64,000 bases of DNA, taken from positions 1 through 64,000 of the IMG/VR virus record IMGVR_UViG_3300028920_001037; one strand, written 5' to 3'. The stretch is from a virus. Positions 27,577 through 55,191 of this stretch are shown in pieces (the stretch's first letter is position 1; every line of letters starts with the position of its first letter). Both the position numbers and the translations under genes were made by a program. The notes under the pieces are model-generated. The model made no database searches. It was given only the letters and a program-made list of their open reading frames with translations, and was not told the DNA's origin.

Positions 27577-27951
27577 TTAATACATCTCTGAAGCTGGTGT
27601 TCCGTAGTCTTCGTCTGTTCCGTAACCTGCTGAAGCTAATGTATCGGCATCTGCTTCTACATCGCTCATATCAACAGGCTCATCATATTCTTCCTCTGCG
27701 CTAGATTCAATATAGCTTTTAAGAGCTGAAAGAATATTATAGTCATCATCAAAGACTTGTGGGTTAGCTGATTTCATATCACTAACAAAATCTGCTATAA
27801 TACTTTTAACATCACCCATCATTTCTTCAAGAGTGTTTTTCTTTTCTGTTTCCTTAGAGAGGTCTACGACTTCTTCAGGACCATCTTTTAAATTGAGATT
27901 AAGGTTTTCTTCTTGCGATAAACCTTCTTTTAAATATTTTTCGAAACTCAT
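27577..27951 (-). CDS. capsid-targeting-tag protein 1, acidic
   Basis: 124 residues. Begins MSFEKYLKEGLSQEE, matching the pattern M-[RS]-F-x-x-[FYL]-[YLH]-x-x-E seen in 17 proteins here and resembling the T4 internal-protein tag MKTYQEFIAE. A cut after LKE is predicted by analogy. The rest is strongly acidic and disordered-looking (DEPVDMSDVEADADTLA). No enzyme domain. Probably a packaged internal head protein. Confidence 0.75.
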   Translation of the reverse strand: MSFEKYLKEGLSQEENLNLNLKDGPEEVVDLSKETEKKNTLEEMMGDVKSIIADFVSDMKSANPQVFDDDYNILSALKSYIESSAEEEYDEPVDMSDVEADADTLASAGYGTDEDYGTPASEMY

Positions 27952-27952
27952 A

Positions 27953-28246
27953 TTAAATATCCTCTATTTCATATGCATTTAAATCCCAAATAAATTCTTT
28001 AATAGTTAAACCATGCTGTTCTAAAATTTTATTAATATCTTTTCTCATATTTATCATAAAAGCTTTTTGTTCTGGAGTTGGTTTATAATTTTTCATCGTT
28101 TGTCCAGTAACGCCGCGACCCATAAAAGCTTTTGTAAACCTATGTTCTTTTGGTCTAATTCGCATGGTAATATCATATTCTGCCACTTCTTCATTTGGAT
28201 TTATATCTGAGTATATATTTTCTTTTAAATATTTTTCGAAACTCAT
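27953..28246 (-). CDS. capsid-targeting-tag protein 2
   Basis: 97 residues, start MSFEKYLKENIYSD with predicted cut after LKE. The body (EYDITMRIRPKEHRFTKAFMGRG...) is mixed and has no known domain. One base from the gene on either side, so it is in the same transcript as tag proteins 1 and 3. Confidence 0.75.
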   Translation of the reverse strand: MSFEKYLKENIYSDINPNEEVAEYDITMRIRPKEHRFTKAFMGRGVTGQTMKNYKPTPEQKAFMINMRKDINKILEQHGLTIKEFIWDLNAYEIEDI

Positions 28247-28247
28247 A

Positions 28248-28892
28248 TTAATAGCCCCCTTCTTTATCTAGCTTATCACTTTTCTGATAAGTCATATGGT
28301 CTGGATTAGTTTTAATATCTTCTGGTTTTTCATAGACATCAAAAGTTTCTTCGTTGTCATTAAGTTTTGTATAGGCCATTTCCATTGAGGTCTGGTCTTC
28401 TTTGAGTTCTTCTCTTGTGAAGATAAATCTGTTATAAATCTTTTCTTCGCCTTCATCATTTGAAACATCATAGTTCTTATCTCTATCTTCAGTTATAGCA
28501 GATTCGTCTATAAAATTATAATCTTTAATTTTCTTCGCTAACGCTTTAGCAATATTATTATAGGCAGGATATTTTTCGGATGCTCTCCAGTAGAACTTAG
28601 TTGGGTTTTTAAGTTCAACCCATTCTGAAAGAGCCTCAACAAAAGCATTTTCAACTTCTTTTGTTTCTTCTATGGTTTCGGTATTGCCTAACCATTTCTT
28701 ACGGAGTTGAAGTTTCCATGCACCGTCATCATATTCTGTACCTTCTGATTCAGCTATACATGAATATGTTGTTCCACCAACTTTAAAATAAATTTCGAAC
28801 CCACCTTTCGCTCTATCAAACCAGACATTACATCTGCCCATTCTCATGTTTGGTGATTCTAATTCTTCTGTAAGATACTTTTGAAAACTCAT
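28248..28892 (-). CDS. capsid-targeting-tag protein 3
   Basis: 214 residues, start MSFQKYLTEELESP. The middle has beta-rich segments (RCNVWFDRAKGGFEIYFKVGGTTYSCIAE) with a helix (EVENAFVEALSEWVEL), and the C-terminus is acidic and lysine-rich. No family is recognised. First gene after the late octamer at 28936-28943. Confidence 0.75.
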   Translation of the reverse strand: MSFQKYLTEELESPNMRMGRCNVWFDRAKGGFEIYFKVGGTTYSCIAESEGTEYDDGAWKLQLRKKWLGNTETIEETKEVENAFVEALSEWVELKNPTKFYWRASEKYPAYNNIAKALAKKIKDYNFIDESAITEDRDKNYDVSNDEGEEKIYNRFIFTREELKEDQTSMEMAYTKLNDNEETFDVYEKPEDIKTNPDHMTYQKSDKLDKEGGY

Positions 28893-28935
28893 GTTGACTC
28901 CTTTAAAAATTAAAAGCTTATAACACTCTTTATTA

Positions 28936-28943
28936 TATTTATA
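28936..28943 (-). promoter_or_regulatory. T4-type late promoter octamer
   Basis: TATAAATA on the minus strand, in the 54-base gap before the gene starting at 28892, with a normal leader and AAAGGAG downstream. It drives three tagged proteins, in line with late, head-assembly expression. Confidence 0.6.
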
Positions 28944-28946: not shown

Positions 28947-30131
28947 TTATATTTCAAGAAAATCAGCTAATCCCTTTTTTTGTCCGGTTTTTACAGGTTC
29001 TTTTTCAGGTTCATCCTCATGGAAACCAAACATATCTTTAACGTAATCAGCTGGTAACCTATTTTTATCCTTAGATTTAAGGCTTTTAAACACATCTGGA
29101 TCTTTATCAATTGCCATTCTCATTATATCAATATCAGGATCTTCTATATAAGTAACTGCATATGGATCAGCCTTAACAGCGGCTTGTTGAACTTCTCTTG
29201 GTGGATCTTTAATATTTTTAATTCCTAATGGCGATTTAGTAACTGCTCTAAGCATATCTTCTATTTCGACTTTTGCTCTTTCACTTTCAGCAGTTTTACC
29301 ATAAACATCTTTAACATAAGCTGCCCAAGGACCTCTTAAATCTTGACTAATTCTAGTAAGACCTTTATATGGATTATCAAAATAAAATGACATTGGATTA
29401 CTAATATATCTTTTATCATCTAGTATTTTTTTAATCCTAAATGAATCCAACTCTTTATTCTTTGTAAATATTGAACCTGTATTATGTTCTAAATCAAATA
29501 CATAATCCAAATATTCAAACTGTTTACGCTGGTTTACATTAGGAACATCTAATGCTTGAATAGCTGATTCCGCTATATTCTTCCACGCACTTCCACCATA
29601 TTGATCGCTTATCCAACCACTTCCATCTGCAAATGCAAACTTAGCAAACTCAAATAAATCAAAAGGTCTATATCCATATTTCTTCATAAATTCTTTTGTC
29701 ATTTCATAAACATCTTTATAACCTTGTGCATAACTTACTTTATGTGGTTCCAATATAAGTTTATCCGATGATGTTCTCTTGTCTGGGTCTGCAAAATATT
29801 TAACATAATCCAAGAAAAATTTCTTTACTCTATCTCCACCTTTTAACCATTTTGGTGGCTCACCTTCTAATGCTGATGGTTTTCTAAAATGTAAATAGTG
29901 CGCGATTTCAGCTGATATTGCTAATTTTAAATTATATAAAAGTTCTTTATACCAATAATCTATAATGGTTTTTTGTGCATCCTTTAAAGCATAAGCTAGA
30001 TCTTCATCTCTTAAAGAATCTGGATTTATAACAGACAATGCATAAAAATCATACATGGCAGAATAAAAGTCTTCTGGTTTATAATGCCAGTTAGAAAAAA
30101 GTTCTTTAAGATAATAATCTTTAAATCTCAT
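28947..30131 (-). CDS. capsid-targeting-tag protein 4
   Basis: 394 residues, start MRFKDYYLKELFSN. No enzyme domain is recognised in the rest, which is rich in aromatic and charged residues, with possible ordered helices throughout (SAIEIAHYLHFRKPSALEG-like stretch near residue 70, and DPYAVTYIEDPDIDIMRMAIDKDPDVFKSL near 325). A possible structural or effector internal protein. The stop/start overlap with the next gene is four bases. Confidence 0.75.
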   Translation of the reverse strand: MRFKDYYLKELFSNWHYKPEDFYSAMYDFYALSVINPDSLRDEDLAYALKDAQKTIIDYWYKELLYNLKLAISAEIAHYLHFRKPSALEGEPPKWLKGGDRVKKFFLDYVKYFADPDKRTSSDKLILEPHKVSYAQGYKDVYEMTKEFMKKYGYRPFDLFEFAKFAFADGSGWISDQYGGSAWKNIAESAIQALDVPNVNQRKQFEYLDYVFDLEHNTGSIFTKNKELDSFRIKKILDDKRYISNPMSFYFDNPYKGLTRISQDLRGPWAAYVKDVYGKTAESERAKVEIEDMLRAVTKSPLGIKNIKDPPREVQQAAVKADPYAVTYIEDPDIDIMRMAIDKDPDVFKSLKSKDKNRLPADYVKDMFGFHEDEPEKEPVKTGQKKGLADFLEI

Positions 30132-30388
30132 TTTTTATTCTCCATATATTTTTTATCTGTTCTTCTAACTATTTTATAACCTTTTGTATATAAATAATTT
30201 ATTATATTGCAAGATTCTTTAAATGCTGGATCTTGATTGTTAACTGCATATAACAAATCAACTTCGGCATTTTTAATAGCATCTATCATTATATTTCTAG
30301 TTTCTTCTATAATTTGAAGATCTATATCATCACTTTTACTTTCAAGTATTTCATTTTCTTTCAGTTGTAAAAAATCTTTAAATCTCAT
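30128..30388 (-). CDS. capsid-targeting-tag protein 5
   Basis: 86 residues, start MRFKDFLQLKENEILES. The body is a helix pair with a NIINYLYTKGYKIVRR end. Overlaps its neighbours by four bases on each side. Unknown function. Confidence 0.72.
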   Translation of the reverse strand: MRFKDFLQLKENEILESKSDDIDLQIIEETRNIMIDAIKNAEVDLLYAVNNQDPAFKESCNIINYLYTKGYKIVRRTDKKYMENKK

Positions 30389-30659: not shown

Positions 30660-30836
30660 TTACATAAATAAGTCTTTTATTTTTGACCAATTTGTTTTTG
30701 GTTGTTGTGGTGTTGATTTAGCTTTTTTAACTTTTGTTTGTAAAGTTTTTATAGTATCAACAGAATCGGATTTGATTTCCATTGAGTACGAAATACTTAA
30801 AAAAATTAAAGTAATTATAAGTATTATTTTTTTCAT
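30660..30836 (-). CDS. 58-residue protein with signal peptide
   Basis: ATG at 30836 overlaps the stop of the gene upstream as ATGA. The N-terminus MKKIILIITLIFLSISYS is a clear signal peptide with likely cleavage after SYS. The mature part is a short, lysine-rich, helical segment. It could be a secreted or periplasmic lysis accessory near the two-TM protein downstream, but no family match is seen. Confidence 0.7.
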   Translation of the reverse strand: MKKIILIITLIFLSISYSMEIKSDSVDTIKTLQTKVKKAKSTPQQPKTNWSKIKDLFM

Positions 30837-31132
30837 TTTGTAAATTTTCCTTTTAATTTTTTAGCTTCTTCTAGTGCTATTTTATATTCTTCATTTGTTG
30901 GAAACCTTTCGGTTAATCTTTTAATAGCATTTACAATCATCTTTTTATTTTCTTCATCTAGAAAACCACGACCAATCATAGTATAATAAAAACCATTTAA
31001 GATTTCATCAGAAGATAAATTACTATTATTAACTTCATCTAATTCTTTATCGGTTGGATCTCTGTATATAGTTTCATTAAATATACTAGGTTTGCTATTA
31101 ATGTTTTCTTTTAAATATTGTTTAAAGCTCAT
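30833..31132 (-). CDS. capsid-targeting-tag protein 6
   Basis: 99 residues from the ATG at 31132 (MSFKQYLKENINSK), which overlaps the stop of the CCA-adding gene as ATGA. An in-frame start four codons earlier would spoil the tag. The body is helical and charged, with no domain recognised. Confidence 0.75.
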   Translation of the reverse strand: MSFKQYLKENINSKPSIFNETIYRDPTDKELDEVNNSNLSSDEILNGFYYTMIGRGFLDEENKKMIVNAIKRLTERFPTNEEYKIALEEAKKLKGKFTK

Positions 31133-32580
31133 GATTCTTTCCAATCCTTAACTAGTTGTTCTATAGTTTCCATATCGTCTAATGGTATTTCATTATCCAT
31201 AACATAATCAGTTACGTCTTTAATAATGTCGCCCATTTTCGGTCCTGGTTTTATATCCGGGCGGATCCGCATAATCAATTTACCATTGATAACTTTTCTA
31301 ACAGCATCAACTGCGTCTTTACCTTTTGACCATTCTTTAATCTTATTTATCTTTTCTTGTATTTCATTCCACTCTTTCTGGTCATATAAACTTCCTCTTG
31401 CTTTAGTATCTGCCAATGCAACTTGTTGTAACACATCAAAATATGGAGATTTCAATAATTGTGCAATGGTCGAGTTACTCATCTTTGGAATATTAAAATA
31501 GTTCATATGATTACTAGCCGCAAAAATTAAAGCGTCTTTCATCTTATTTTGTAGTTTAAGTCTGTCTGCAATTTTTTCCAATATGCGTTTTGACTCTCCT
31601 TCATGACCATGATATGTATGAGTTCCTTTTTCTGTATCAAACTTATATGTTTCTGGTTTACCAACATCATGTAAAAGTATAGCCATATTAACTGTTGGGT
31701 CATTTCCTTTGTAAGTTCTAAGAGCTGCAATTGTGTGTTGAATGACGTTGCCTTCTGGATGGTGAGCAGGTGTATGCTGAAACCCTTCCATAACATCAAT
31801 CTCTGGAAGAATGTATTGTAATAGTCCAACATCTTTCATCATTAAGATGGCATCAGCAAATTTAGTTCCCGGTTCTTTAGCCATCTTTAAAACTTCTTTC
31901 ATTATTCTTTCGGCGGCTTGACCCTTAATTTTATCAGACTGTGATTGAATTGCTTTAAAAGTTTCTGGCTCTACATTAAATCCCATACGAGAGGCAAAAC
32001 GAATTGCTCTAAGCATTCTAATATAATCTTCTGTAAATCTTTCTTCTGGATTACCAACAGTTCTAAGAACTTTATCTTTAATATCTTTCTTACCATCAAA
32101 ATAGTCTAGAATATTTCCATCTCTATCTATTGCCATTGCATTAATTGTAAAATCTCTACGAGCAGCGTCATCTTTAAAGTCTGGAACTATTGTTACTTTA
32201 TCCGGATGTCTGCCATCAGTATACGTTCCATCTGAACGAAAATTAGAAATTTCAAAATTATAACCTTTATATTCTACAACCACAATACCAAATTCTTTAT
32301 TTCTTCCGATGTCATGTGATGGAAATAATCTATCGACAGTTTCCATAGGAACATTGGTTGCTATATCAACATCATCGAAATCTTTTCCTAATATAATATC
32401 TCTGACTGCACCACCAACGATATAGTTCTTTGAATCTGGTTTAGCTTTCTTTAGTTTATCTAATATTTCAACACCTGCTTTAAGTGGTGGAGTTTTTTCA
32501 ACGTATTCTTCCCAGTCACCAAAGCGATCTTCGTCTTCAATATAGCCTTCTTTAAAAATATAAAATTCTTTAAATCTCAT
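31129..32580 (-). CDS. tRNA nucleotidyltransferase (CCA-adding type) with HD domain and capsid-targeting tag
   Basis: 483 residues. After the tag MRFKEFYIFKEG and a linker of about 45 residues comes the class II nucleotidyltransferase head: YIVGGAVRD (about 53-61), DFDDVDIATN with the metal-binding Asp70/Asp72 pair, and RRDFTINAMAID. RNA-binding neck/body regions follow, then a complete HD domain with LLHDVGKP and HGHE. This is the architecture of CCA-adding enzymes with an HD phosphohydrolase domain, as in E. coli, but with an extra N-terminal tag. The tag suggests that the enzyme could travel in the head and act on tRNA ends at once after infection. Confidence 0.88.
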   Translation of the reverse strand: MRFKEFYIFKEGYIEDEDRFGDWEEYVEKTPPLKAGVEILDKLKKAKPDSKNYIVGGAVRDIILGKDFDDVDIATNVPMETVDRLFPSHDIGRNKEFGIVVVEYKGYNFEISNFRSDGTYTDGRHPDKVTIVPDFKDDAARRDFTINAMAIDRDGNILDYFDGKKDIKDKVLRTVGNPEERFTEDYIRMLRAIRFASRMGFNVEPETFKAIQSQSDKIKGQAAERIMKEVLKMAKEPGTKFADAILMMKDVGLLQYILPEIDVMEGFQHTPAHHPEGNVIQHTIAALRTYKGNDPTVNMAILLHDVGKPETYKFDTEKGTHTYHGHEGESKRILEKIADRLKLQNKMKDALIFAASNHMNYFNIPKMSNSTIAQLLKSPYFDVLQQVALADTKARGSLYDQKEWNEIQEKINKIKEWSKGKDAVDAVRKVINGKLIMRIRPDIKPGPKMGDIIKDVTDYVMDNEIPLDDMETIEQLVKDWKES

Positions 32581-32589: not shown

Positions 32590-33216
32590 TTAAAAAATAA
32601 ATTTATTTACTAGTGTATATCTAATATTAAAGATACCAAACAATATTTGAATCTCTTTAAGACATTCATTCATTCCACCACCACATAAAAGACAGTTATT
32701 AAAATCTCTTTTTAGTTCAGCTATATTTATATCTGGATTCCATATTGTTATACCTTCATCTTCTATAGCTTCAAATCCATTATTATAATCTTCTTCTGAT
32801 AATATATTCTTCCATTGATCTAAAGGTACATCTCTACTATCAGTAATTTTATTATTATACATATATCTTAAAGTTTGTTTAACTCCATTTTCACTAATAC
32901 CATGATCTAAAAAGTCACGAAAGAATGAATAACCTTTATCATAAAAATCAACATTATTCCAATCCCAATCAGTATAAAGACTTTCATTGTATTCTGCAAG
33001 CCAGCTTCTAATAACATCAGGTGAATCCTCACTTGCTATTGTTTCGGGGCCATTATAGAAATATAATATATTTTTCTTGATACTAGTTAAAAAATCTCCA
33101 AATTCTGTTAGGTCAAACTTAATATTATCTTTATATAAAGGTTGCACATCAACAACGACTAGGCTACGAAATGTGCTTCCCATACGTTCATTTAGATAAT
33201 ATTCTTTGAATCTCAT
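32590..33216 (-). CDS. capsid-targeting-tag protein 7, isochorismatase-like candidate
   Basis: 208 residues, start MRFKEYYLNERMGS. The next stretch SLVVVDVQPLYKDN resembles the first motif of isochorismatase-fold hydrolases (D-V-Q). A C-terminal LLCGGGMNECLKEIQ places a cysteine where those enzymes have their nucleophile. The central lysine motif is not clear to me. A hydrolase fold is therefore tentative, and the substrate is unknown. Confidence 0.65.
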   Translation of the reverse strand: MRFKEYYLNERMGSTFRSLVVVDVQPLYKDNIKFDLTEFGDFLTSIKKNILYFYNGPETIASEDSPDVIRSWLAEYNESLYTDWDWNNVDFYDKGYSFFRDFLDHGISENGVKQTLRYMYNNKITDSRDVPLDQWKNILSEEDYNNGFEAIEDEGITIWNPDINIAELKRDFNNCLLCGGGMNECLKEIQILFGIFNIRYTLVNKFIF

Positions 33217-33959
33217 TATTTACCGCGTCTCTTTTCTAACCAGTTAGAATACGACATATAGTCTTTTAAAAGTGTTATAACATCATTATATGTTTTAAGT
33301 TCGTTTAAATCTTTTATCTTTGCATATTTGCTTCTTTTGGTAAGGAAAAGTATTTGTTTAGGTAAAACCATCCAGTATCTTTGTATATCAAATATTATTT
33401 CTTCTTCACCACCAACAGGCGGAAGTTCATTATTATATTCCTTATATGTTTGATGAATCTTATCAAGAACATCGTTATATTCTTCTTCATTCTCAATATC
33501 TTTTATAGGTGTAGTTAAATCTCCCATATTTAATTCTTTTGGGCTTTTATCCGATAAGATTGCAATATCATTTGTAATTGGTGATACAAAAGACTTAAAT
33601 GGTTTAATTGGAACCATAATTCCTGGATTTCCAAAAACAGAAAAGGTATGTAATTTGTAAGTTGCAAATGCTGGTTTTCTAATTCCTAACTTTCTTCTCA
33701 CCATATCGGCTGCTAATTGATTTCGACCAACTAAAAAACTACCACGAAATACAACATCACCATCGACTTCTTTCCTATCATTAATAACTTCTACAGCAGG
33801 CCACGGCCCTCTATTTACAGAAAAGGATCTCCACACAATATCCTTATTTGATAAATCAAGACTATTAATATCATTAATTATCAATGGCAAACTATCGGTC
33901 AGCTTGCCTCGTTCTGGATAGACTATATCTTCTGATAAATAATAATCTTTAAATCTCAT
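33216..33959 (-). CDS. capsid-targeting-tag protein 8, possible ADP-ribosyltransferase-like fold
   Basis: 247 residues, start MRFKDYYLSEDIVY. Possible ADP-ribosyltransferase marks are IVWRSFSV (a candidate Arg motif) and GGEEEIIFD (an ExE-like motif near residue 190), but the S-T-S motif is unclear, so this is a weak reading. T4 Alt is a packaged ADP-ribosyltransferase with a capsid-targeting tag, which makes the idea worth testing. The protein ends with a basic helix. First gene after the late octamer at 33978-33985. Confidence 0.65.
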   Translation of the reverse strand: MRFKDYYLSEDIVYPERGKLTDSLPLIINDINSLDLSNKDIVWRSFSVNRGPWPAVEVINDRKEVDGDVVFRGSFLVGRNQLAADMVRRKLGIRKPAFATYKLHTFSVFGNPGIMVPIKPFKSFVSPITNDIAILSDKSPKELNMGDLTTPIKDIENEEEYNDVLDKIHQTYKEYNNELPPVGGEEEIIFDIQRYWMVLPKQILFLTKRSKYAKIKDLNELKTYNDVITLLKDYMSYSNWLEKRRGK

Positions 33960-33977: not shown

Positions 33978-33985
33978 TATTTATA
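33978..33985 (-). promoter_or_regulatory. T4-type late promoter octamer
   Basis: TATAAATA on the minus strand, 19 bases before the ATG at 33959, between the giant fibre gene and the tagged block. Followed by AGAGG as ribosome-binding site. Confidence 0.6.
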
Positions 33986-42704: not shown

Positions 42705-42720
42705 TTATTAATCTCTCCTT

Positions 42721-43443
42721 TTATCTTTGCATATTAATATTAAATTCTTTATCAATAATTCTATAATGTTCAATATGAATAACTGCTGATAAATCAAAAA
42801 CAAGTTTTCTTTCTCCAATTCTATTTCTAAATCTTTTATCACTTCTAGTTCCCATAAATCCCATTGGTTTATCTCCATAATAATCTGGTCTTACATAAAA
42901 ACCTTTACCTTTATCAAGTATAACTTTTTTTCTAACTAATTGAGCACCTCCATTAGGAACTTTTCTCTTATATACTTTAGTAATACCAAACGATTTTGCA
43001 ACATCATAAGCGGAATCAATATACATTTTAAAACAATCAAAAAATTCATTAGCATTCTTTAATTTAGTATGAGCAGTTAAAGGAAAACCGATTACTCCTT
43101 GAAACTTAGGATCAAGATAATTTTTCATTCCTTTTAAAAAATATGGATCATATATAAGATCACTATCATTAAAAAATAACCATTCTTCTGTTGAATTTTT
43201 TACTTGTATATTTCTAATTAAACCTCTTGTTTTTAATTCTTCATCATAAGGTGTAAGTTTAAACTTCAATCCTTTTTGTTCATAAAATTTTACTATAGTT
43301 TCTATATCTGGACTTCCAATACCTTTAACATAAGCTACATTAATTATAAAATCTGGTGGGTCTATTTGTTGAACTAAAGATGAAAGTTGCATAACCCATC
43401 TTCTTTGAAAATTAGTACATACTGTACATATTTCAATTGTCAT
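42721..43443 (-). CDS. GT-A glycosyltransferase family 2-like
   Basis: 240 residues. Rossmann start IEICTVCTNFQRRWV and the metal-binding NDSD motif in EEWLFFNDSDLIYDP (about 92-106), followed by an acceptor region with HIEHY near the end. Typical of inverting GT2 enzymes, slightly short. Confidence 0.75.
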   Translation of the reverse strand: MTIEICTVCTNFQRRWVMQLSSLVQQIDPPDFIINVAYVKGIGSPDIETIVKFYEQKGLKFKLTPYDEELKTRGLIRNIQVKNSTEEWLFFNDSDLIYDPYFLKGMKNYLDPKFQGVIGFPLTAHTKLKNANEFFDCFKMYIDSAYDVAKSFGITKVYKRKVPNGGAQLVRKKVILDKGKGFYVRPDYYGDKPMGFMGTRSDKRFRNRIGERKLVFDLSAVIHIEHYRIIDKEFNINMQR

Positions 43444-47585: not shown

Positions 47586-48197
47586 TTACCTATTGTCAAA
47601 TCTTTCATCCTGTTCGGTTTCAACCGGAATTGCATTTATCAAATTATAAATAATATCTTTTTGTTCATCTGTAAACTTCCATCTTTTATTTACATTTTTA
47701 TCAGCCCAGTCTTTAACTGAAGAGCCTTTTTCTTCTGACATTGCTAACCAATCAGCCATCATCTCAGCAACATATATATCAGGCATTTTAGTTGCATCGA
47801 CTAATTGATCTGGTACGGCATCTCTATCTTTTGTATTAATGTTTGCTGTATCTCCAGCCCAACATTCCGGATGATGTTTATTAACCTTAACATGATGTAA
47901 AGTTGCCTCATTACATTTATCCTTAACTCCATCTGGCATTGTATAGTCTTTACCCAAGTCTTTACAATGATAATCCCATGAGATGAAGATATAAGGAATT
48001 TTCTCTACATCATCTTCAAGTTTACTTTTATCATGTTCTTCAGTTTGTTTTGATAAACCTTCATATCGTTTATCATAGTCTTCAATTTTCTTTGCATATT
48101 TTTGAACTCGACCAATGTGTTTTTTAGTTCTTTGTTCAAACCAGTCTTTCATTTCATCAGTATAATTCATACTTTCATAAAAACTTTTAAATGTCAT
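47586..48197 (-). CDS. DUF5662-like HD-type protein with weak capsid tag
   Basis: 203 residues. The start MTFKSFYESMNY keeps F-x-x-F-Y-E of the tag. The body has HIGRVQKYAKKIED, EEHDKSKLEDDVE, HHVKVNKHHPECW and ADWLAMSEEKGSSVKDW, which matches DUF5662 (HD-like metal site with paired HD and HH motifs). Possibly a phosphohydrolase. Unknown substrate. Confidence 0.72.
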   Translation of the reverse strand: MTFKSFYESMNYTDEMKDWFEQRTKKHIGRVQKYAKKIEDYDKRYEGLSKQTEEHDKSKLEDDVEKIPYIFISWDYHCKDLGKDYTMPDGVKDKCNEATLHHVKVNKHHPECWAGDTANINTKDRDAVPDQLVDATKMPDIYVAEMMADWLAMSEEKGSSVKDWADKNVNKRWKFTDEQKDIIYNLINAIPVETEQDERFDNR

Positions 48198-48207: not shown

Positions 48208-48831
48208 TTATTTTTCTCCTACTTTAGATGATCCTCCACCCATTTTCCATGCATGTTTTGTCCAACCTGTTTGAGGGCTTCCACTCTTTTTTTCTTCACC
48301 TTCTTCTGGTGAGGTAGCTGCCATTATTTTTTCGTCATCTGAATCTGTTTCGGATTTTCCTATATTAGTTTTATCAAGTAAAAGTTTCATAACTAAGTAT
48401 ACAACATCACCATCAGTTTCTGTATTTTTACTTAAAATTTTATTAAGTTTATAATATCCACCTATACTCGGTTCTGTTTCTAAAAATATTTCAAATTTAG
48501 CAACTTCTGGTTTAATAAAACTTTCAATTGCTTCTTTAACATCATCAACATTTGAGTTAACTTTTTCTGCTAAATTTGAAAGATTAATTTTTTGTATAAG
48601 TTTAATAGAATTTCCTTGTTTACCATCAAACATATAACCATCTATTTCTGGTTTTTGGAATTCTTCATCTTCTTTACCCCATAAATTTAATGCATGAGAA
48701 TCGTCTACTTTAATTAATGTAAAGTCTTTTTGCCCCTCTTGTTGTGGTGCTAAATATGGTTTAAGTTGATCTTTAACATCTTCAAAAAAAGTATTAAGTT
48801 TATTATACAAAAATTGTTTATGTTCCCTCAT
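48208..48831 (-). CDS. hypothetical protein in tagged block
   Basis: 207 residues. No clear tag and no known domain. The C-terminus is Gly/Ser-rich and ends KMGGGSSKVGEK. Acidic middle. GGAGG upstream of the start is shared with the 3' end of the 56-residue ORF. Confidence 0.7.
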   Translation of the reverse strand: MREHKQFLYNKLNTFFEDVKDQLKPYLAPQQEGQKDFTLIKVDDSHALNLWGKEDEEFQKPEIDGYMFDGKQGNSIKLIQKINLSNLAEKVNSNVDDVKEAIESFIKPEVAKFEIFLETEPSIGGYYKLNKILSKNTETDGDVVYLVMKLLLDKTNIGKSETDSDDEKIMAATSPEEGEEKKSGSPQTGWTKHAWKMGGGSSKVGEK

Positions 48832-48989: not shown

Positions 48990-49964
48990 TTAAACCGATA
49001 CCTTTTCTTTTTCTTTAGATGTTACAAATTGTTTTCTAGATTCTCTTATTTTATTTATAAAACCTCTCAAAATATCTTCTAGATTATCTTTTTTAATTTC
49101 ATATACTATTGATGTATTTGTTTCGGGATCTGTAAACTGTGCCATATTAATATAACTATAACCAGGAGGAATATCCCAGAAACCATCAAACTTTAATCCT
49201 GTTTTATCAGCTAAGTATTTAGCTATCTGAACAATACTTGTATCAATTTTTTCAATTCCATTTTCTTCTGTAAGCAATCTAATACTATTATTTTTACTAT
49301 AAAAAGATAACATTTTTTCAGTTATATATTTTTCATAATTATTTACAGACTCTTCCTTTTCTTCTTCATCTTGTAATTCAGGTTCAAGTTTATCTTTATA
49401 AGGATAAAGGTCTATTTTAAAGAAGTCTGTATCTTCAAATTTAATGAATTCAGCTTTTTGGTCTTTATCTTCAATCTCTATTTTTTTCCAATCACCTTCT
49501 TCGTCCATATATTCTTTAACTGCATCTATAGGAACATTGGCAACAAACACAATGCTAACTTCTTCATCTTCTTCCATATCAGCAGCTTTAGAAGGTTCTA
49601 ATGTTGCCATAACATATTTACCTTCTTCAAAGTCTTTGTATTTCTCTTTATCTTTAACACCATAGTAGAAATCAAAAAGTTCACCTTCAATAGCCTTTTC
49701 TGGTTCTGGTTGAGCAGCTGGTGCTCCCATACCAGGCATATTTTTTCTTTTCTTTGCCTTATCATATTTACTAGTTTTCTTTTTCTTTCTAGCCAAGTCG
49801 ATTGGTTTATATTTCATTTGTTCTTCAGGTGCCAAAGACTTAATCTTAACATAATGCATTTCACCTGATTTGGTTCTGTGCCAAACTCTTCTTTCGCGCC
49901 ATGCGATTGAAGGTGGTTTATAGTCTTTTGAATACTCGTTTAATAAATGATCTAATATACTCAT
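48990..49964 (-). CDS. hypothetical protein with divergent capsid-like tag
   Basis: 324 residues. Start MSILDHLLNEYSKD ends in LNE like the other tags, but the F-x-x-[FY] part is changed. It has a basic segment (ARKKKKTSKYDKAKKRKNM, about 58-76) followed by a long acidic region (MEEDEEVSIVF...) and a second tag-like KYITEKML near residue 210. The basic patch would fit DNA or RNA binding in the head. Confidence 0.72.
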   Translation of the reverse strand: MSILDHLLNEYSKDYKPPSIAWRERRVWHRTKSGEMHYVKIKSLAPEEQMKYKPIDLARKKKKTSKYDKAKKRKNMPGMGAPAAQPEPEKAIEGELFDFYYGVKDKEKYKDFEEGKYVMATLEPSKAADMEEDEEVSIVFVANVPIDAVKEYMDEEGDWKKIEIEDKDQKAEFIKFEDTDFFKIDLYPYKDKLEPELQDEEEKEESVNNYEKYITEKMLSFYSKNNSIRLLTEENGIEKIDTSIVQIAKYLADKTGLKFDGFWDIPPGYSYINMAQFTDPETNTSIVYEIKKDNLEDILRGFINKIRESRKQFVTSKEKEKVSV

Positions 49965-49975: not shown

Positions 49976-51337
49976 TTATAATTCGAATTCGTTTATATCT
50001 GTAATATCAGCTTCTACTTGGAAAAATTTTAAAAAGTAACCCAATCCTTTCTTAATAATTTGAACTATGGCGTTGTAAATTCTTTTCATAAAATTAACAA
50101 CTACAGTACCATACTTTTTAATTTTATCCATAAAACCTTCATTAAGATCTTCTGTAATTAAATCACAATCTATTCCTAATGATTCGGCATATTCAAATAA
50201 TTTACAAACATTTATTTCAGTTGTTTCTTTCTTTACAGGCACTTCTTGAACATCAAGAATAGTTGAAGAACCGCTGTTACCACTAGTCTTCCAATTAACC
50301 AAAATCTTAACTTGATTAGCTAATTTTTTAATTTTACTACTAATAATTGCAAACTCAATTACTGATGCATCACTATTAAATTTTAAAAAGTAGTTTGCCT
50401 TTGGTGGTTGTTCAATGAATTTTAAATCTCCGGTAACGGCCTCTTTAATAAATTCTTGTTTAAATCGACTATTGTTTGCTACAATATTATTTAAAATTCT
50501 TTCAAACTCTTTGTGGTTTAATCCTATTTTTGTTTTAGCTTCTAAATCTTTTACATTTCTTCCTAATAAAGCTTCTTCACTAGATTCTGGTTTAACCCAT
50601 TTATCTACGGTTTTAATAAATTCATCACCAACATTTGCCTTATTTAAAGCATTATAGATGAGAGCTTGACCTTCACCATGTATTACCTGTGGTGATGCTA
50701 AACGAATTCGACCAGTTTTACTCATTAACTTTAATGACATTCTATATGCTTCACTAATTAAAACGTCAGTTTTTGGCGTTCTATCTGGTGATCTTTTTGA
50801 ATTTACCAATGATACATATTGTCTACTCAATTGATAATTTTTATTGGCTCCTATATTAATAGCTGGTTGATTAGTTTTAATTTGTTTATCAATATAATCA
50901 GCTATTTTTTTACCAACAGTATTATCCATTGATGTTGGTTCTTTAACTTTGAATTCCTTAATATGTTTTTTATTCCAAGCATTAGTTATAGCAGCTTCAT
51001 ATGTTGTACCTTTTTCTAAAGATCTTGATACGAATTCCTTTGTCTTAACTATATGTGCTAATCTATATTTTTCACCATCACTACCTATAAATAAAATATT
51101 TTTAATATTCTCATCTCTATCTTTTAACATTTTAATTGCTTTTGAATTTAAATTTACAGGGAAAGTAATTTCTTTAGTTTCACCTTTTTTTCTTATGGCA
51201 AATTTCGATTCATCTTTAATCTTTTTTAAAAATGTATCGACTCTACCAGGTCTATTAAATAAACTTACATAACTAAAAGTACCACGACCAGCATGTTTGT
51301 CTTCGGACTCAGTAAAATAATGTTCTCTAAATCTCAT
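49976..51337 (-). CDS. capsid-targeting-tag protein with C-terminal amphipathic helices (paralogue A)
   Basis: 453 residues, start MRFREHYFTESEDK. The centre has a segment shared with the next gene (NSRFKQEFIKEAVTGDLKF...PPKANYFLKF). The end (GFMDKIKKYGTVVVNFMKRI, IVQIIKKGLGYFLKFFQVEADI) is strongly amphipathic/hydrophobic and could insert into membranes. A packaged and injected pore or channel component is one possibility. No enzyme domain is recognised. Confidence 0.75.
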   Translation of the reverse strand: MRFREHYFTESEDKHAGRGTFSYVSLFNRPGRVDTFLKKIKDESKFAIRKKGETKEITFPVNLNSKAIKMLKDRDENIKNILFIGSDGEKYRLAHIVKTKEFVSRSLEKGTTYEAAITNAWNKKHIKEFKVKEPTSMDNTVGKKIADYIDKQIKTNQPAINIGANKNYQLSRQYVSLVNSKRSPDRTPKTDVLISEAYRMSLKLMSKTGRIRLASPQVIHGEGQALIYNALNKANVGDEFIKTVDKWVKPESSEEALLGRNVKDLEAKTKIGLNHKEFERILNNIVANNSRFKQEFIKEAVTGDLKFIEQPPKANYFLKFNSDASVIEFAIISSKIKKLANQVKILVNWKTSGNSGSSTILDVQEVPVKKETTEINVCKLFEYAESLGIDCDLITEDLNEGFMDKIKKYGTVVVNFMKRIYNAIVQIIKKGLGYFLKFFQVEADITDINEFEL

Positions 51338-51346: not shown

Positions 51347-52435
51347 TTATAAATCTGTAAAATCAATAGGTTCAGCTTCTATTACTGGAATTATTCCCCA
51401 AAAATTACAAAAATCGTCAAAACCTTTTTTAAGCATGTTTATTAATTTATTAAAAATATTCTTAAAAAAGTCCCATATTTTTTGTAATACTCCTTGTTCT
51501 TCTTCATTTAACAAAGATAATTCTTTATCTAGATATTTATATTCCTGTACAAGAAAATCATTCCAACATGTTGCTTCCTTAGTTGGGTCTTTTGCTTCAT
51601 ATCTATGTGATGTTCTATAATATAAATTGGATGGGTCATGTTTATCCTTATCCGTTTTATATGAAATTCTAAACTTAGATTTCTGCATTACCTTATCTAT
51701 AAAATTATCATCTGTTAAAATATCATAATATCCTATTTTCTTAGCATCATTTGTAAAAGAAAGCATTTTATAGGCCGCGGCTTTTGGTTCTGTTGATGAA
51801 AATTTAATTTGTCCTGACAAAGCTTCCTTAACAATATCCCTATTAAATTCCTCATTTTGAAATATATCTTTTAACATAACCTGTATTTTATCATCAAGTT
51901 CTTTTGTTTTATCTGCTATTTCTTTTTTACGACTTGCCGGTGCCTTAAATCTATCCATAAATCCTTGTTCCATAGTTCTATTTAATTCTACAACTTGGTT
52001 CTGTAATCCTTGATATAGTTCCTTTTTGCTGTTCATAACTGCAAAAAACAATGCCATAGATTCTGTTTTGGCTCCACTTGAGAGTGTTGACTTCTCACCC
52101 TTTGCACCAGCTTTAAGTGATAGATTAATCTGTTTAGGACTGTTAACTACTATGTCGGATTTTGATTTTGATTTACCAGCAGGATATTCAGTTCCTGTTT
52201 CTGGATCAACAAATGCAAATGCTTTACTTACTTGAAATGGTACCGGACCTATAGCTTCGGATTCTACATCTCCAGTTATATTTTCTCTTTTAAAAAAGTC
52301 TTCACAAACTTTTTTAGTCGCTTCTGCAAGTTCTGGAAATGATTCAACACGACCAGTATTTAAATATTCATTGACAGTAACTTCAAATTGATCACCAATA
52401 GTTGCTTCTGTTAAATAAAATTCCTTAAATCTCAT
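51347..52435 (-). CDS. capsid-targeting-tag protein with C-terminal amphipathic helices (paralogue B)
   Basis: 362 residues, start MRFKEFYLTEATIG. It shares with paralogue A the pattern NEEFNRDIVKEALSGQIKF...PKAAAYKMLSF and an ending of amphipathic helices (KIWDFFKNIFNKLINMLKKG). The two probably arose by duplication. A beta-rich N-terminal domain with GTEYPAGKSKSKSD lies before a helical middle. Function unknown. Confidence 0.75.
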   Translation of the reverse strand: MRFKEFYLTEATIGDQFEVTVNEYLNTGRVESFPELAEATKKVCEDFFKRENITGDVESEAIGPVPFQVSKAFAFVDPETGTEYPAGKSKSKSDIVVNSPKQINLSLKAGAKGEKSTLSSGAKTESMALFFAVMNSKKELYQGLQNQVVELNRTMEQGFMDRFKAPASRKKEIADKTKELDDKIQVMLKDIFQNEEFNRDIVKEALSGQIKFSSTEPKAAAYKMLSFTNDAKKIGYYDILTDDNFIDKVMQKSKFRISYKTDKDKHDPSNLYYRTSHRYEAKDPTKEATCWNDFLVQEYKYLDKELSLLNEEEQGVLQKIWDFFKNIFNKLINMLKKGFDDFCNFWGIIPVIEAEPIDFTDL

Positions 52436-52439: not shown

Positions 52440-53912
52440 TTAACCTTTCTTTGCCATTGCCCATCTATGTGCTAAAGCTTTACTTGTTTTTATCTTCTCA
52501 CCCTTCTCAGCGGCTTCTTTTGCTTTCTCAAGTGTTGCTTTTAGTTTTGACCACTTATCAATACCTGATTGCTTTCCCTTACCAGCTGTAACAGCAGCCA
52601 CAGCCGCTTCCATATTCTTTTCAAACTTTCCTGTAAGAGAATCAATCGATCTTGCTATACCAAGTTTCGATGCTTCGGCTTCTCCACCAGCTTGATATTC
52701 TTTTCCATAAGTTTCTAAATCCTTAATGAAGTTTGCAACATCCAATTTTCCAGAAACTAACTTTACAAATAAGTCTATTCTATCTTTTCTGATAGGAACA
52801 AGATGCATTAATTCTTGACCCAATTCCTTATCTTGATAAACAATCTTATATAAAGATTCTGCCTTTTCAGGAACAGTTTGGTCTGAATTGACTATATTCA
52901 CAAACTCAGGGTTATTTACAACAGAACTAATAATCTTCTCGACTCTATTATCATACTTTGTTCCTGCACCATGAATAGGAAGAAAGATATGTTTCTTTTC
53001 TTTCTTCTTACAATAGTTACACTTTCTACAGTCACCTATACAATGACGAGCAATTGTAACTGGTGAACCATAATACTCTTGACCTTTAATAGTTTTGTCT
53101 TTAATCTTCTTCATTATGTCAATGAATTCATCATACTCGACTGCTATAAATGCATTATCTAACATATACTGTGAACCATTAACACATACATTAGGTCCTA
53201 AATCTCCAACATCTAAATCGGTTCTATGTGTATATGTGTATATTTGTAAAGGTGAACCTATGTTATTTAGTTCTGCTCCGACTTGTGCAAGTTTTTTAAC
53301 ATCATCTGCTGTTCCTATTTTTGCTTTCATCTCATCAGGAACTTTTGCTAGAAGTGCAGGGTCAGTTGGAATATTTCTAAATTCACCTGCTTCATTGACT
53401 CTTACATACTTAATCTTCTTTAAAGCCTTTGCAATCTCATCTAATCCTTTTGCAATACCAGCTGGAGTCAAACATGCCCATTGTTTTTCATGTCTTATAT
53501 TCTTTGCTAATGGTGATCCTGGTTTATCCCCCCATCTCTTTTCTGGAGCCAATGCATAACAATTACCATCAGCGGCTAGTTTACACAAACCAATCTTGGC
53601 AGACATACAATCCGTTGCTGTTGACATATTCATTAAAATAGTATCGCCACCTATTTTAATATTACCTTTACCAACTTCAAAGTGTCTTTCTTCTCCTGTG
53701 TCCGGGTCTTTATAAGTTATTGACGGAGATTTATACTTATCATCTTTTTCTTCTGTAAGAGTTATTTCCTTTAATGCCCCTTCTTTAATAAGAGTTGGAA
53801 AATATTTGTCAGGAATTCCAATGTGCAACTTTCCACTTTCATCAAAATAACAAAGTTCAAAATGAATAGGAATGTTAAGTTCAGGCTGATTATAATGTTC
53901 TGTAAATCTCAT
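52440..53912 (-). CDS. Cys-rich protein resembling the GP88 family, with degenerate tag
   Basis: 490 residues. It begins MRFTEHYNQPELNI, where the tag loses its clear L-x-E. The body has CMSAKIGLCKLAADGNCYALAPEKRW and later CIGDCRKCNYCKKKEKKH, the cysteine series of phage 'gene product 88' proteins, which are thought to be radical SAM-like. The Cys spacing could hold an iron-sulphur cluster. A helical C-terminal third follows. Function unknown. Confidence 0.72.
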   Translation of the reverse strand: MRFTEHYNQPELNIPIHFELCYFDESGKLHIGIPDKYFPTLIKEGALKEITLTEEKDDKYKSPSITYKDPDTGEERHFEVGKGNIKIGGDTILMNMSTATDCMSAKIGLCKLAADGNCYALAPEKRWGDKPGSPLAKNIRHEKQWACLTPAGIAKGLDEIAKALKKIKYVRVNEAGEFRNIPTDPALLAKVPDEMKAKIGTADDVKKLAQVGAELNNIGSPLQIYTYTHRTDLDVGDLGPNVCVNGSQYMLDNAFIAVEYDEFIDIMKKIKDKTIKGQEYYGSPVTIARHCIGDCRKCNYCKKKEKKHIFLPIHGAGTKYDNRVEKIISSVVNNPEFVNIVNSDQTVPEKAESLYKIVYQDKELGQELMHLVPIRKDRIDLFVKLVSGKLDVANFIKDLETYGKEYQAGGEAEASKLGIARSIDSLTGKFEKNMEAAVAAVTAGKGKQSGIDKWSKLKATLEKAKEAAEKGEKIKTSKALAHRWAMAKKG

Positions 53913-54403
53913 ATAAGTTCGAATCCTTCCTCTTTTATTTTTGATTTGGTTTCTTCAAACTTCTTTTGCATTTTATCTATAATATGGTCAGGTACATCTG
54001 ATCTATCTTTACCTGCTTCAATATCTTTTCTAATTCTTCTTTTCGATTCTTCTGGGTCAATTTCAAAAATTTTTGCCTTAAGTTTAATATCTTTTGGCAT
54101 TTGTTTAATTAGACTTCTTCTTTTTTCTGTATCAACATTGGTTGCATCATATATTACAGAATCTCCACCTTCCAAGAATCTCTTGGTTGCTTCTTCTGCC
54201 ATTTGAAAGACTTGAGCATTCATTGACTGGTCTGAAATATCGTCTGCCATTTCGCGTCTTATTTCATCAGGTGAAACAATTTTATATTTATTACCTTTAT
54301 TGAATTCCTTTATCCAAGTAGACTTACCGGATCCAGGAATTCCAATCGGAAGAACTAGTTCCGGTTTATCATCTTCAGTATAAAATTCTTTAAATCTATT
54401 CAT
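53909..54403 (-). CDS. P-loop kinase (AAA_33, polynucleotide-kinase-like) with capsid-targeting tag
   Basis: 164 residues, start MNRFKEFYTEDD. P-loop GIPGSGKST (residues 21-29), then SPDEIRREMADD, VIYDATNVDTEKRRSL and a KRRIRKD patch, as in T4-Pnk-type 5' polynucleotide kinase domains and related AAA_33 kinases. It lies close to a HAD phosphatase, the other half of Pnk enzymes. No Shine-Dalgarno site precedes this ATG, and the late octamer sits 6 bases upstream, so it may be made from a nearly leaderless late RNA. Confidence 0.82.
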   Translation of the reverse strand: MNRFKEFYTEDDKPELVLPIGIPGSGKSTWIKEFNKGNKYKIVSPDEIRREMADDISDQSMNAQVFQMAEEATKRFLEGGDSVIYDATNVDTEKRRSLIKQMPKDIKLKAKIFEIDPEESKRRIRKDIEAGKDRSDVPDHIIDKMQKKFEETKSKIKEEGFELI

Positions 54404-54408
54404 AAATA

Positions 54409-54416
54409 TATTTATA
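54409..54416 (-). promoter_or_regulatory. T4-type late promoter octamer next to a start codon
   Basis: TATAAATA on the minus strand at 54416-54409. The ATG of the kinase gene is at 54403, so the start of transcription would fall at or close to the start codon. Confidence 0.5.
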
Positions 54417-54422
54417 ATTTAA

Positions 54423-54689
54423 TTAATGTGATAGATATAAGTCTATAGTTTTCTTATCAAAACCAATATCTATTAAATATTTCTCTTGTGCTTCCGATAA
54501 TCTTTTAACTGCCACAAACATATTTTCATTATTATTATTTAAATGTGTAACTTTTACCCATCCTTTTTGTTCTAACTCTTGTTCTGTAAATCCAATTTTT
54601 TCTGAAAACTTAACATGTTCACCATAACCACAAGGATAAAAATTGCCATCTCTATCTATCCACCCTGTTGTTGGTGTTGTTTCTTTCAT
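54423..54689 (-). CDS. small hypothetical protein
   Basis: 88 residues. DRDGNFYPCGYGEHVKFSEK suggests a small metal or peptide fold, and the C-terminus is helical (SEAQEKYLIDIGFDKKTIDLYL). Overlaps the HAD gene by 38 bases. No tag. Confidence 0.68.
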   Translation of the reverse strand: MKETTPTTGWIDRDGNFYPCGYGEHVKFSEKIGFTEQELEQKGWVKVTHLNNNNENMFVAVKRLSEAQEKYLIDIGFDKKTIDLYLSH

Positions 54690-55191
54690 ATTTGTCTAGC
54701 TCCTTAATTGTATCATTAGTTGATTTGTGTAGTAATCCAATACCTCCAGCTTTTTCCCACCTGTCTATATTCCCTTTCATATCATCAACTAATATACTTT
54801 TATTATCAGCATATTTTTCTTTATTTCTGTCTATTATATATTCAACATCATTTCCTAACTCTCTTTTAATCCAATCTATTTTACCTTTCTTTACAATATC
54901 AATATTTTGAGTGCCTGGAGATGATAGTATTATTGGATTAAATTGTTTCAAAAAATCCCACAGTTCTTTTCCATCTTTAGTCCAGGGAAGATTTGCCCAC
55001 CAATCTGAACCTGCATCATGAATTAATTTCCACGCTTCAACATCTTTACCTTCAGCTTCCCATTCATCCATAGTTTTACCTGGACTTAATTTATCAAACC
55101 CATCAACCCAACTTACAATAACACTATCCATGTCAACATATAACTTATAGTTTTTTAAATCTTCTGTAAAATAAAATAGCTTAAAACGCAT
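54652..55191 (-). CDS. HAD-superfamily phosphatase (5'(3')-deoxyribonucleotidase/Pnkp-like) with capsid-targeting tag
   Basis: 179 residues, start MRFKLFYFTEDLKN. HAD motif I is DMDSV (Asp20, Asp22), motif II is ILSSPGT and motif IV is ILVDDMKGNI. Motif I has Ser instead of Gly after the second Asp. The pattern fits nucleotidase or 3'-phosphatase HADs such as the C-terminal half of T4 Pnkp. With the kinase two genes downstream it may form a split end-repair pair. It has a late promoter at 55223-55230. Confidence 0.8.
   Translation of the reverse strand: MRFKLFYFTEDLKNYKLYVDMDSVIVSWVDGFDKLSPGKTMDEWEAEGKDVEAWKLIHDAGSDWWANLPWTKDGKELWDFLKQFNPIILSSPGTQNIDIVKKGKIDWIKRELGNDVEYIIDRNKEKYADNKSILVDDMKGNIDRWEKAGGIGLLHKSTNDTIKELDKYERNNTNNRVDR

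Follow-up and report, generated by a model that had tools for sequence, protein, structure and literature searches.

The window analysed in this study is a 64,000-nucleotide stretch (positions 1 to 64,000) of the 75-kb virus record IMGVR_UViG_3300028920_001037, whose source is an uncultivated, probably T4-like phage. Every tagged gene listed in a preliminary description of the window is encoded on the minus strand, which makes the coordinates given there stop ends; genes are named here by their low coordinate, and the short N-terminal tags sit at the high end of each gene. The series begins with a strongly tagged, acidic protein of 124 aa (27577..27951, MSFEKYLKE, with LKE at 9), followed by proteins of 97 aa (27953..28246, MSFEKYLKE) and 214 aa (28248..28892, MSFQKYLTE), both recognised by translation, tag score and cut motif; a TATAAATA late-promoter-like box on the minus strand (28936..28943) precedes the latter. 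Translation and tag score also identify proteins of 394 aa (28947..30131, MRFKDYYLKE), 99 aa (30833..31132, MSFKQYLKE, the tag beginning at an internal ATG, 31132, of the ORF 30833-31144), 208 aa (32590..33216, MRFKEYYLNE) and 247 aa (33216..33959, MRFKDYYLSE), the last with a minus-strand TATAAATA box (33978..33985) 26 nt before it. The same stretch holds an 86-aa protein with a fair tag (30128..30388, MRFKDFLQLKE) and a tagged CCA-adding enzyme or tRNA nucleotidyltransferase (31129..32580, MRFKEFYIFKE) assigned by Pfam, phrog and PDB matches.

Further along the window are a DUF5662 protein with a weak tag (47586..48197, MTFKSFYES), a gene starting MREHKQFLYNK (48208..48831), and a 324-aa protein whose weak tag rests on tag score and cut motif (48990..49964, MSILDHLLNE). 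These are followed by two paralogues, 49976 (49976..51337, MRFREHYFTE), which has homologues in Kyanoviridae, and 51347 (51347..52435, MRFKEFYLTE), recognised by tag score and its likeness to 49976, and by a 490-aa protein identified by tag score whose tag, MRFTEHY, is without an LxE site (52440..53912). The last two genes in the series encode a predicted Pnkp-type 5' polynucleotide kinase (53909..54403, MNRFKEFYTED; PF13671 and PDB matches) and a HAD 5'-3' nucleotidase/phosphatase (54652..55191, MRFKLFYFTE; phrog_2643), with minus-strand TATAAATA boxes 13 nt (54409..54416) and 39 nt (55223..55230) before them, respectively. Beyond the window, the same record contains one weak tag (71861-72199, P 0.011) and two strong ones, on a cytidylyltransferase (72201-72803) and on 73680 (73680-74939).

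The preliminary description had proposed a family of 17 tagged proteins, and tag-like gene starts were found by translation at 16 of the 17 coordinates; the other, 48818, is no gene end, and the actual gene is 48208-48831. Each tag was scored by its likeness to the remaining tags, with 1500 random internal 11-mers and the 85 other N-termini of the record as controls. What stood of the family were 13 strong tags, which outscored all controls (1500/1500 and 85/85), one fair tag (30128; P 0.0013, 0/85 other N-termini as good) and two weak ones (47586, P 0.013, and 48990, P 0.015, each with 1/85 controls), while the tag of 48208 was not supported (P 0.077, 5/85 control N-termini). Both 47586 and 48990 had been called weak at the outset, as had 52440, which scores strong. 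Counting the window and the sequence beyond it, approximately 16 tags are supported in the record. A strict tag pattern, drawn up after the tags had been viewed, gave 13 matches against 0.27 expected, a count that is partly circular, as are the per-tag scores, because the set was chosen by likeness. This circularity does not apply to a motif-free test, in which 17 of the 105 proteins in the record had at least two N-terminal look-alikes on unrelated bodies, compared to 0.01 expected from 200 column shuffles. Look-alike pairs inside the record (733 per 100,000, a second leader family included) are far more frequent than those between the record and 11 other genomes (3-83 per 100,000). The second family starts MKIRxGFVSNSSSSSF and accounts for at least 5 of the 14 look-alike proteins listed. 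The bodies of the 20 tagged proteins are unrelated, as first described, except for the pair 49976/51347 (24% identity over 200 aa, E 1.4e-8). One short N-terminal leader common to unrelated bodies is a feature that the record shares with the T4 internal proteins and their capsid-targeting sequence (CTS). No DNA similarity to phage records was found for 27001-52000. Among viral contigs, the strict pattern had 0 matches and a looser one matched 43 stretches, 17 of them open for at least 60 codons and 26 with an early stop.

Most tags had been described as ending in L/F-x-E. Within the first 13 residues, [LIF]xE occurs in 16 of the 20 tagged proteins but in only 3 of 85 others, and [LI]xE in 11 of 20 tagged versus 0 of 85 other genes. 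Four of the 20 leaders have no [LIF]xE within 13 residues, and five of the 16 that do have F-x-E, which goes beyond the L/I-x-E of T4. Of the nine leaders starting MRF, six have L or F at position 8 together with E at 10. The leader comprises 9-12 extra residues ahead of the homologous domain (20-23 for 31129). In alignments, residue 15 of 53909 falls opposite residue 3 of T4 Pnkp, and residue 16 of both 54652 and 72201 opposite residue 4 and residue 7, respectively, of untagged relatives. In relatives that lack the tag, these domains begin close to the N-terminus; here the leader is added in front of them. In line with the late promoters suggested earlier, intergenic TATAAATA was found 10 times on the coding strand compared to 1.05 expected (0/500 shuffles) and once on the opposite strand. 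Four of the 10 boxes directly precede tagged genes, and these predicted sites are consistent with late expression from TATAAATA promoters as in the T4 CTS.

The pattern used for comparison with other phages was shaped on this record, also with S-CREM2 in view. In T4, a first, stricter version matched no ORF, while the later version matched 2 of 251 ORFs, both MKTYQEFIAE, the IPII/IPIII leader, and missed Alt and Ip1. The later version matched 0 of 343 ORFs in a phage without the T4 portal. According to PMC9026906, 10 residues of the T4 IPIII leader suffice, with residues 4 and 7 serving targeting and 8 and 10 processing, and the T4 protease cuts after L/I-x-E. The leaders of this record fit the IPIII rule. 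As with IPI-III and Alt of T4, which are processed by gp21, leaders of approximately 10 residues stand on unrelated bodies, with a hydrophobic-x-E close to residue 10 and T4-type late promoters (PMC9026906 and PMC12373910). The record differs from T4 in its own leader sequence, with F-x-E in some cases, in a cargo that includes recognisable nucleic-acid enzymes, and in number, with approximately 16 supported tags in 75 kb versus three in T4; at least 10 such proteins are reported for related phages (PMC12373910). The ejection proteins of phiKZ and SPN3US are packaged with DNA and cut at x-x-E by a distant gp21 relative, but several of their propeptides exceed 100 residues and are cut at S/A-x-E (PMC5694885 and PMC9026906), whereas the shared leaders here are short, at approximately 10 residues, and carry [LIF]xE.

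Similar leaders also occur on virion-detected proteins of cyanophages (PMC10665884, Table 3; PMC9602691; PMC9146016, Table 1). In S-CREM2, where the pattern was partly tuned, five of six matches are among the 52 proteins, out of a total of 219, that published mass spectrometry detected in virions (P 0.003), while a broader tag rule gave no significant excess (4/28 non-structural virion proteins versus 8/167 undetected, P 0.075). With the pattern frozen, published virion mass spectrometry included both matches of S-SCSM1 (2/2) and one of four in S-SZBM1, which jointly is a weak result (3/6, P 0.045). The S-SZBM1 count depends on gene starts: annotated starts give four matches, and longest-start calls give one, gp80, not virion-detected. 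In addition, S-SZBM1 gp191 and gp192, which have classic-looking leaders, are absent from its 30 virion-detected proteins, and the virion-detected, Cas9-like gp12 of S-CREM2 is without a leader. Virion-detected cytidylyltransferases with leaders were found in S-CREM2 (MKNFSSFLTE), S-SCSM1 (MKSFLQFLKE) and S-SZBM1 (MRFRQFIIE), and 72201 is a tagged cytidylyltransferase in this record. The likeness to the virion cytidylyltransferase/NMNAT and kinase proteins of these Kyanoviridae covers both the kind of enzyme and a similar leader, although the leader sequences differ; the virion detection applies to those phages. In the portions consulted, the authors of PMC10665884 and PMC9602691 leave open whether virion enzymes are carried or carried over, and the leader is not mentioned.

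Neither a gp21-like (S77) prohead protease nor a T4 portal gene was found in the 75-kb record, which says little because the record is a fragment. Of the 16 records in a mixed set, partly recruited by chance pattern matches, 9 contain an S77 protease, as do all 6 records of a further set. In the motif-free test, 9 of 14 genomes, T4 among them, were without a leader family, and all four other genomes with one (G001, G002, LR756500 and S-CREM2) carry an S77 protease. The 26 look-alikes of G001, of which those listed start like MN[LI]xEAxxLL, were judged to be of another kind and left out of the targeting-leader count. In LR756500, a 462-kb phage, another leader stands on approximately 29 genes, and the homologue of 73680 bears that phage's own leader, of different sequence. 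Between whole genomes, leaders follow the genome. At the level of loci this was not supported in 49 contigs of the 73680 family (same/different-locus ratio 1.4-1.9), and the ratio was 0.9 for 13 non-redundant loci.

The earlier reading of a T4-type capsid-targeting system is supported by the fit to the IPIII rule and by the similar leaders on virion-detected proteins of relatives; a system of this kind, with its own leader sequence and an enlarged, enzyme-rich cargo, is the best available reading and a likely one. "T4-like" is apt for the system, while the leader sequence is the phage's own. Since the record is a fragment without a prohead protease or portal gene, we infer packaging, cutting and injection in this phage. 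Under such a system, the tagged proteins would be produced late in infection, and their first approximately 10 residues (MRFKEFYLTE or MSFEKYLKE) would presumably bind the prohead core. The prohead protease would then cut most leaders after the [LIF]-x-E ending at residues 8-11, freeing the body within the head, to leave it alongside the DNA when the next host is infected, so that ready-made enzymes would enter together with the viral DNA.

Several other explanations may be considered. It is unlikely that the leaders mark prohead-core (scaffold) proteins consumed in assembly, few of which would remain in the mature head or be injected: the tagged set does include small, acidic proteins such as 27577, but several of its members are recognisable enzymes, and purified virions of S-CREM2 are reported to contain enzymes that bear leaders. 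Slightly less likely still, the leader might steer proteins to another cell site or partner, such as a phage compartment, the membrane, or a replication or transcription complex; the cargo enzymes could also work within the infected cell, and the record has a second leader family as well. Against this, similar leaders stand on virion-detected cyanophage proteins, the T4 control picks only two proteins, both with the internal-protein leader, and the cut motif ending at residues 8-11 would be left purposeless. A translation or mRNA feature, a repeated start region copied around the genome with no protein-level function, is very improbable. The fairly uniform codons of the nine MRF leaders (mean DNA identity 71% over the leader) speak for it. 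Against it, likeness over the 30 bases upstream is just 34%, silent codon differences occur (F3 TTC 1/9, K4 AAG 2/7 and several Leu codons), and the LR756500 homologue of 73680 has a different leader sequence.

Turning from leaders to cargo, 31129 matches PF01743 (6.4e-33), HD (4.2e-7), phrog_2244 (9.3e-79) and PDB 1miv (1.3e-47). Its matches H1, H2 and H10 were rejected, as they lie on bacterial-looking contigs and have no tags, and related-locus searches with 31129 and with 49976, each alone, found nothing. The putative Pnkp-type kinase 53909 matches PF13671 (5.2e-23), 4gp7 (1.1e-10; presumably a bacterial Pnkp kinase domain), Pnkp1 4xrp (2e-8) and T4 polynucleotide kinase 1ly1 (2.4e-7), while 54652 matches phrog_2643 (1.7e-24), a 5'-3' nucleotidase family, with no match among PDB sequences at E 0.1. 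Distant homologues of 28947 occur in LR756511, a 595-kb phage (E 1e-6), and Salicola phage SCTP-2 (E 2e-3). A tentative ADP-ribosyltransferase assignment for 33216 was dropped, as it matched no family and, at E 0.1, the phage collection held no relative of it. The Kyanoviridae homologues of 49976 start MQGFKTFLSE in phage Melnitz, which fits the pattern, and MLSFTGYSNLSE in HTVC008M, which does not; 49976 also has a weak match to phrog_5750, "internal head protein" (E 0.0028). The 51347 family comprised 80 retrieved loci, and AlphaFold2 of 51347 with 49976 gave a mean pLDDT of only 34.6. The 73680 family is encoded by at least 557 viral stretches. Among 70 distinct members of the family, K56 is conserved in 69, D58 in 69, G59 in 70, R75 in 69 and E140 in 68; E388 (67), G389 (68) and K400 (67) are not independent evidence because these residues lay in the search patterns. 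We take KxDG, E, EGxV and K to be nucleotidyltransferase motifs of RNA/DNA ligases; Pfam and PDB profile searches with the family gave no ligase match (best PDB E 0.52).

As a hypothesis, the sequences of the tagged Pnkp-like kinase, HAD phosphatase, CCA-adding enzyme and KxDG ligase-like protein suggest an RNA-end-repair kit. A broader and rather doubtful proposal is that T4-like phages, especially very large ones, use genome-private "postal codes", with the posted cargo here including such a kit for mending host tRNAs. Each genome's leader would be placed on a dozen to several dozen proteins and decoded by that genome's own prohead core and protease. From the first minute of infection, ahead of phage gene expression, the posted kit (5' kinase, HAD phosphatase, KxDG ligase-like enzyme, CCA-adding enzyme and cytidylyltransferase) would repair tRNAs that defence nucleases had cleaved.

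Were the leader readable from sequence, it would become possible to predict the injected proteomes of T4-like phages that have not been grown. Such predictions, if true, would name for each genome the proteins acting before transcription, in anti-restriction, tRNA repair and NAD supply, and would account for the metabolic enzymes that recur in cyanophage virion proteomes. In addition, genome-specific leaders would constitute orthogonal packaging signals with which heads could be loaded with chosen proteins.

Of the 17 coordinates given in the preliminary description for proteins sharing a short N-terminal tag, 16 mark the stop ends of minus-strand genes with starts as described, whereas '48818' corresponds to gene 48208-48831, the start of which is not tag-like. 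Each N-terminus was given a score for its likeness to the remaining tags. By this measure 13 listed tags exceeded all controls (1500 random internal 11-mers and 85 other N-termini), these scores being partly circular because the set was picked by likeness. Tag 30128 was graded fair, 47586 and 48990 weak (as anticipated), and 48208 unsupported; 52440, also called weak beforehand, is one of the 13. Beyond the window, the same record contains two strong tags (72201-72803 and 73680-74939) and one weak tag (71861-72199), so that, of the 20 tags examined, 15 are strong, 3 weak, 1 fair, and 1 unsupported. A motif-free test, which looks for similar N-termini on proteins whose bodies are unrelated and uses 200 column shuffles as its null, identified 17 of the record's 105 proteins (0.01 expected). 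A second leader family, located at 6891-9709, accounts for at least 5 of the 14 proteins that it listed. The tagged bodies are unrelated, as described, with the exception of the related pair 49976/51347. Nine MRF leaders are 71% alike but the 30 bases upstream of them only 34%, and the leaders show some silent codon differences, indicating likeness at the protein level. The alignment with T4 Pnkp pairs its residue 3 with residue 15 of 53909, and in alignments with untagged relatives residue 16 pairs with residue 4 for 54652 and with residue 7 for 72201; from these offsets, the leader is an addition of 9-12 extra residues. On the coding strand, the sequence TATAAATA was counted 21 times where 11 are expected (no more than 18 in any of 60 Markov simulations), and between genes 10 times (1.05 expected; 0 of 500 shuffles as high; 1 on the other strand). 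Four of these intergenic sites directly precede tagged genes (28248, 33216, 53909, and 54652), in agreement with the late promoters proposed for several tagged units.

In T4, the first 10 residues of IPIII are enough for packaging, with residues 4 and 7 governing targeting and residues 8 and 10 processing, and gp21 cleaves after L/I-x-E (PMC9026906). L/I-x-E ends at residue 9-11 in 11 of the 20 leaders compared to 0 of 85 other N-termini, and F-x-E ends at residue 8-11 in 5 more leaders and 3 of the 85; [LIF]xE is present in 16 of 20, in keeping with the L/F-x-E said to close most tags. The leaders were also described by a pattern (M, 1-2 residues, F/L/Y, 1-3 residues, F/Y, L/I/F, 1-2 residues, E), which matches 13 of 105 proteins in this record, 3/115 in genome G002, 1/60 in G003, 2/199 in Melnitz-3, 1/594 in G001, and none in HTVC008M (0/181), G004 (0/29), or Tunturiibacter phage Tunturi_5, which lacks a T4 portal (0/343 ORFs). 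In T4, the pattern matches 2 of 251 ORFs, both starting MKTYQEFIAE, and misses Alt and Ip1; a first, stricter pattern matched no T4 ORF.

Published cyanophage virion proteomes link this pattern to virion-detected proteins. Among translations of all 219 annotated S-CREM2 genes, 6 match, 5 of which (SAM hydrolase gp6, gp13, kinase gp14, gp136, and cytidylyltransferase gp154) are among the 52 virion proteins (PMC10665884 Table 3; P 0.003, not blind, as the pattern was composed with these proteins in view); with the broader rule that preceded it, P was 0.075. The pattern was then frozen. In S-SCSM1, 2 of 282 proteins match, both marked as virion proteins (48 marked in the sequence record, 45 in PMC9602691), and in S-SZBM1 4 of 218 match, one being on the list of 30 detected proteins (PMC9146016 Table 1); together, 3 of 6 matches are virion-detected (P 0.045). 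The virion-detected cytidylyltransferase/NMNAT bears the leader in all three phages. The virion-detected Cas9-like gp12 of S-CREM2 (OR473000: 7704-10313) lacks a leader; the adjoining gp13 starts MKDLHSFLTE.

The sequences suggest that a leader belongs to its genome, with other genomes having other leaders: MGKFKEFFxE in G002, MKxFxxFLTE in S-CREM2, and MKYIKEYEEFLxE in 29 of 516 genes of LR756500 (L149-L168 stretches; 400 kb examined of a 462-kb phage). Look-alike pairs per 100,000 number 733 within this record (second leader family included), 254 within LR756500, 214 within G002, and 34 within S-CREM2, compared to at most 83 between these genomes. The LR756500 homologue of 73680 (E 2.6e-79) bears LR756500's own leader. 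A comparison at finer scale, run on 49 contigs, showed no such tie of leader to genome, and leaders such as MIKLKDLLKE recur across different contigs of the 73680 family. In LR756500, the motif-free test identified 41 proteins (null mean 3.0, maximum 9), and [LIVF]xE lies at residues 9-15 in 18 of the 29 leader genes versus 65 of 487 others; judging by these leaders, its injected set is possibly larger than that of the window. Several of its leader proteins have leucine-rich-looking bodies. Genome G001 (400 kb examined of a 415-kb record), a jumbo phage, has 26 proteins with N-terminal look-alikes, those listed starting like MN[LI]xEAxxLL, a different family. Near the terminase gene of Salicola phage SCTP-2 (L009:413-3272), neighbouring genes start MKINDLLKEN, MKVNDILKEN, and MKINNLLNEN, likely another leader family.

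The motif-free test detected no leader family in 9 of 14 genomes, T4 included. All four other genomes with such a family (G001, G002, LR756500, and S-CREM2) have an S77 prohead protease, which was detected in 9 records of a mixed set of 16 and in all 6 of another. The gp21-like protease sought beyond the window was not found: no prohead protease of T4 type and no T4-type portal turned up in the 75,062-base uncultivated virus record, of which the window is bases 1-64,000, and the record is therefore taken as a fragment. Almost all genes of the window lie on the minus strand; no tRNA genes were found in it, and 27001-52000 has no DNA-level match to phage records.

By sequence match, the tagged cargo includes a CCA-adding enzyme (31129), a Pnkp-type kinase (53909), a HAD 5'-3' nucleotidase (54652; no PDB match), a cytidylyltransferase (72201), and, with a weak tag, a DUF5662 protein (47586). 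Homologues of 49976/51347 directly follow the replicative helicase gene in HTVC008M and Melnitz; the Melnitz start matches the pattern and that of HTVC008M is merely similar. The KxDG protein 73680 is one of a family for which viral contigs contain at least 557 coding stretches. Of 70 distinct members (73680 and those from the best 80 loci), 68-70 conserve K56, D58, G59, R75, and E140, and 67-68 conserve E388, G389, and K400, the latter three being part of the search patterns and hence not independent. The order of these positions resembles RNA and DNA ligase motifs; no sequence search returned a ligase, so the ligase-like step is inferred. The relatives are mostly longer than 73680 (72/79 exceed 550 aa), and a crude motif search found a cytidylyltransferase in 18/79 and a P-loop in 7/79. 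Pfam searches of four such proteins identified kinase plus cytidylyltransferase in two, a sub-threshold cytidylyltransferase in one, and nothing in one; Pfam also assigned a cytidylyltransferase to the longer proteins from Mel-JY01 and LR756508. Genes annotated as terminase, prohead protease, and capsid are all found less than 12 kb from the fused gene of Mel-JY01. A loose leader pattern matches 40 of 68 distinct family starts, a count without a control. Given these fusions, the kinase, nucleotidyltransferase, and ligase-like parts may cooperate on nucleic-acid ends. RNA repair by the cargo, as part of the reading with genome-private leaders, seems rather unlikely, having been marked down because 3 of the 8 conserved positions are not independent of the search. 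DUF6267 of T4-like marine phages (L006:6788-8020, L007:7067-8314) contains the motifs KWDG and EG[YF]V, and its alignment to the 73680 family is weak (hhalign E 0.00085, probability 24%).

The second leader family (MKIRxGFVSNSSSSSF[IV]V and variants) comprises six neighbouring minus-strand genes (6891-7244, 7649-7975, 7965-8480, 8482-8799, 8812-9369, and 9356-9709) with no Pfam match at 0.001; the string FVSNSSSSSF was not found in open-licence literature. None of four NAD/purine supply genes carries a leader: NAPRTase-family (11658-12905), IMPDH-family (15634-16743), NadD-like nucleotidyltransferase (19240-19830), and NAD synthase (19820-20713). An NAD-dependent DNA ligase is split across 24534-25373 and 25626-26753. 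By reading of sequence, extended series of sugar- and glycosyltransferase-like genes (40568-47499 and 56023-70123) flank the tagged clusters and adjoin a LamG-like fibre gene of higher GC (33990-39074, 1694 aa).

Capsid-targeting sequences (CTSs) on unrelated injected proteins are already known in T4-like phages. PMC12373910 gives three CTS proteins in T4, where Ip1-3 block type IV restriction, and at least 10 in related phages, many found through the signal sequence; according to a suggestion in PMC9026906, it is by means of the CTS that T4-like phages can package various proteins. Compared to the three of T4, this record has 15 strong and 1 fair, with a private leader. The set size and enzyme content were rightly called unusual: as far as searched, the accessible open-licence literature, exclusive of preprints, holds no equal set, private leader, or RNA-repair-like cargo, and the tie between leaders and virion-detected metabolic enzymes of cyanophages is likewise new within that literature. 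The leaders probably target the tagged proteins to the capsid; the 16 with a site would likely be cut after [LIF]xE, and by analogy with T4 the proteins would then be injected.
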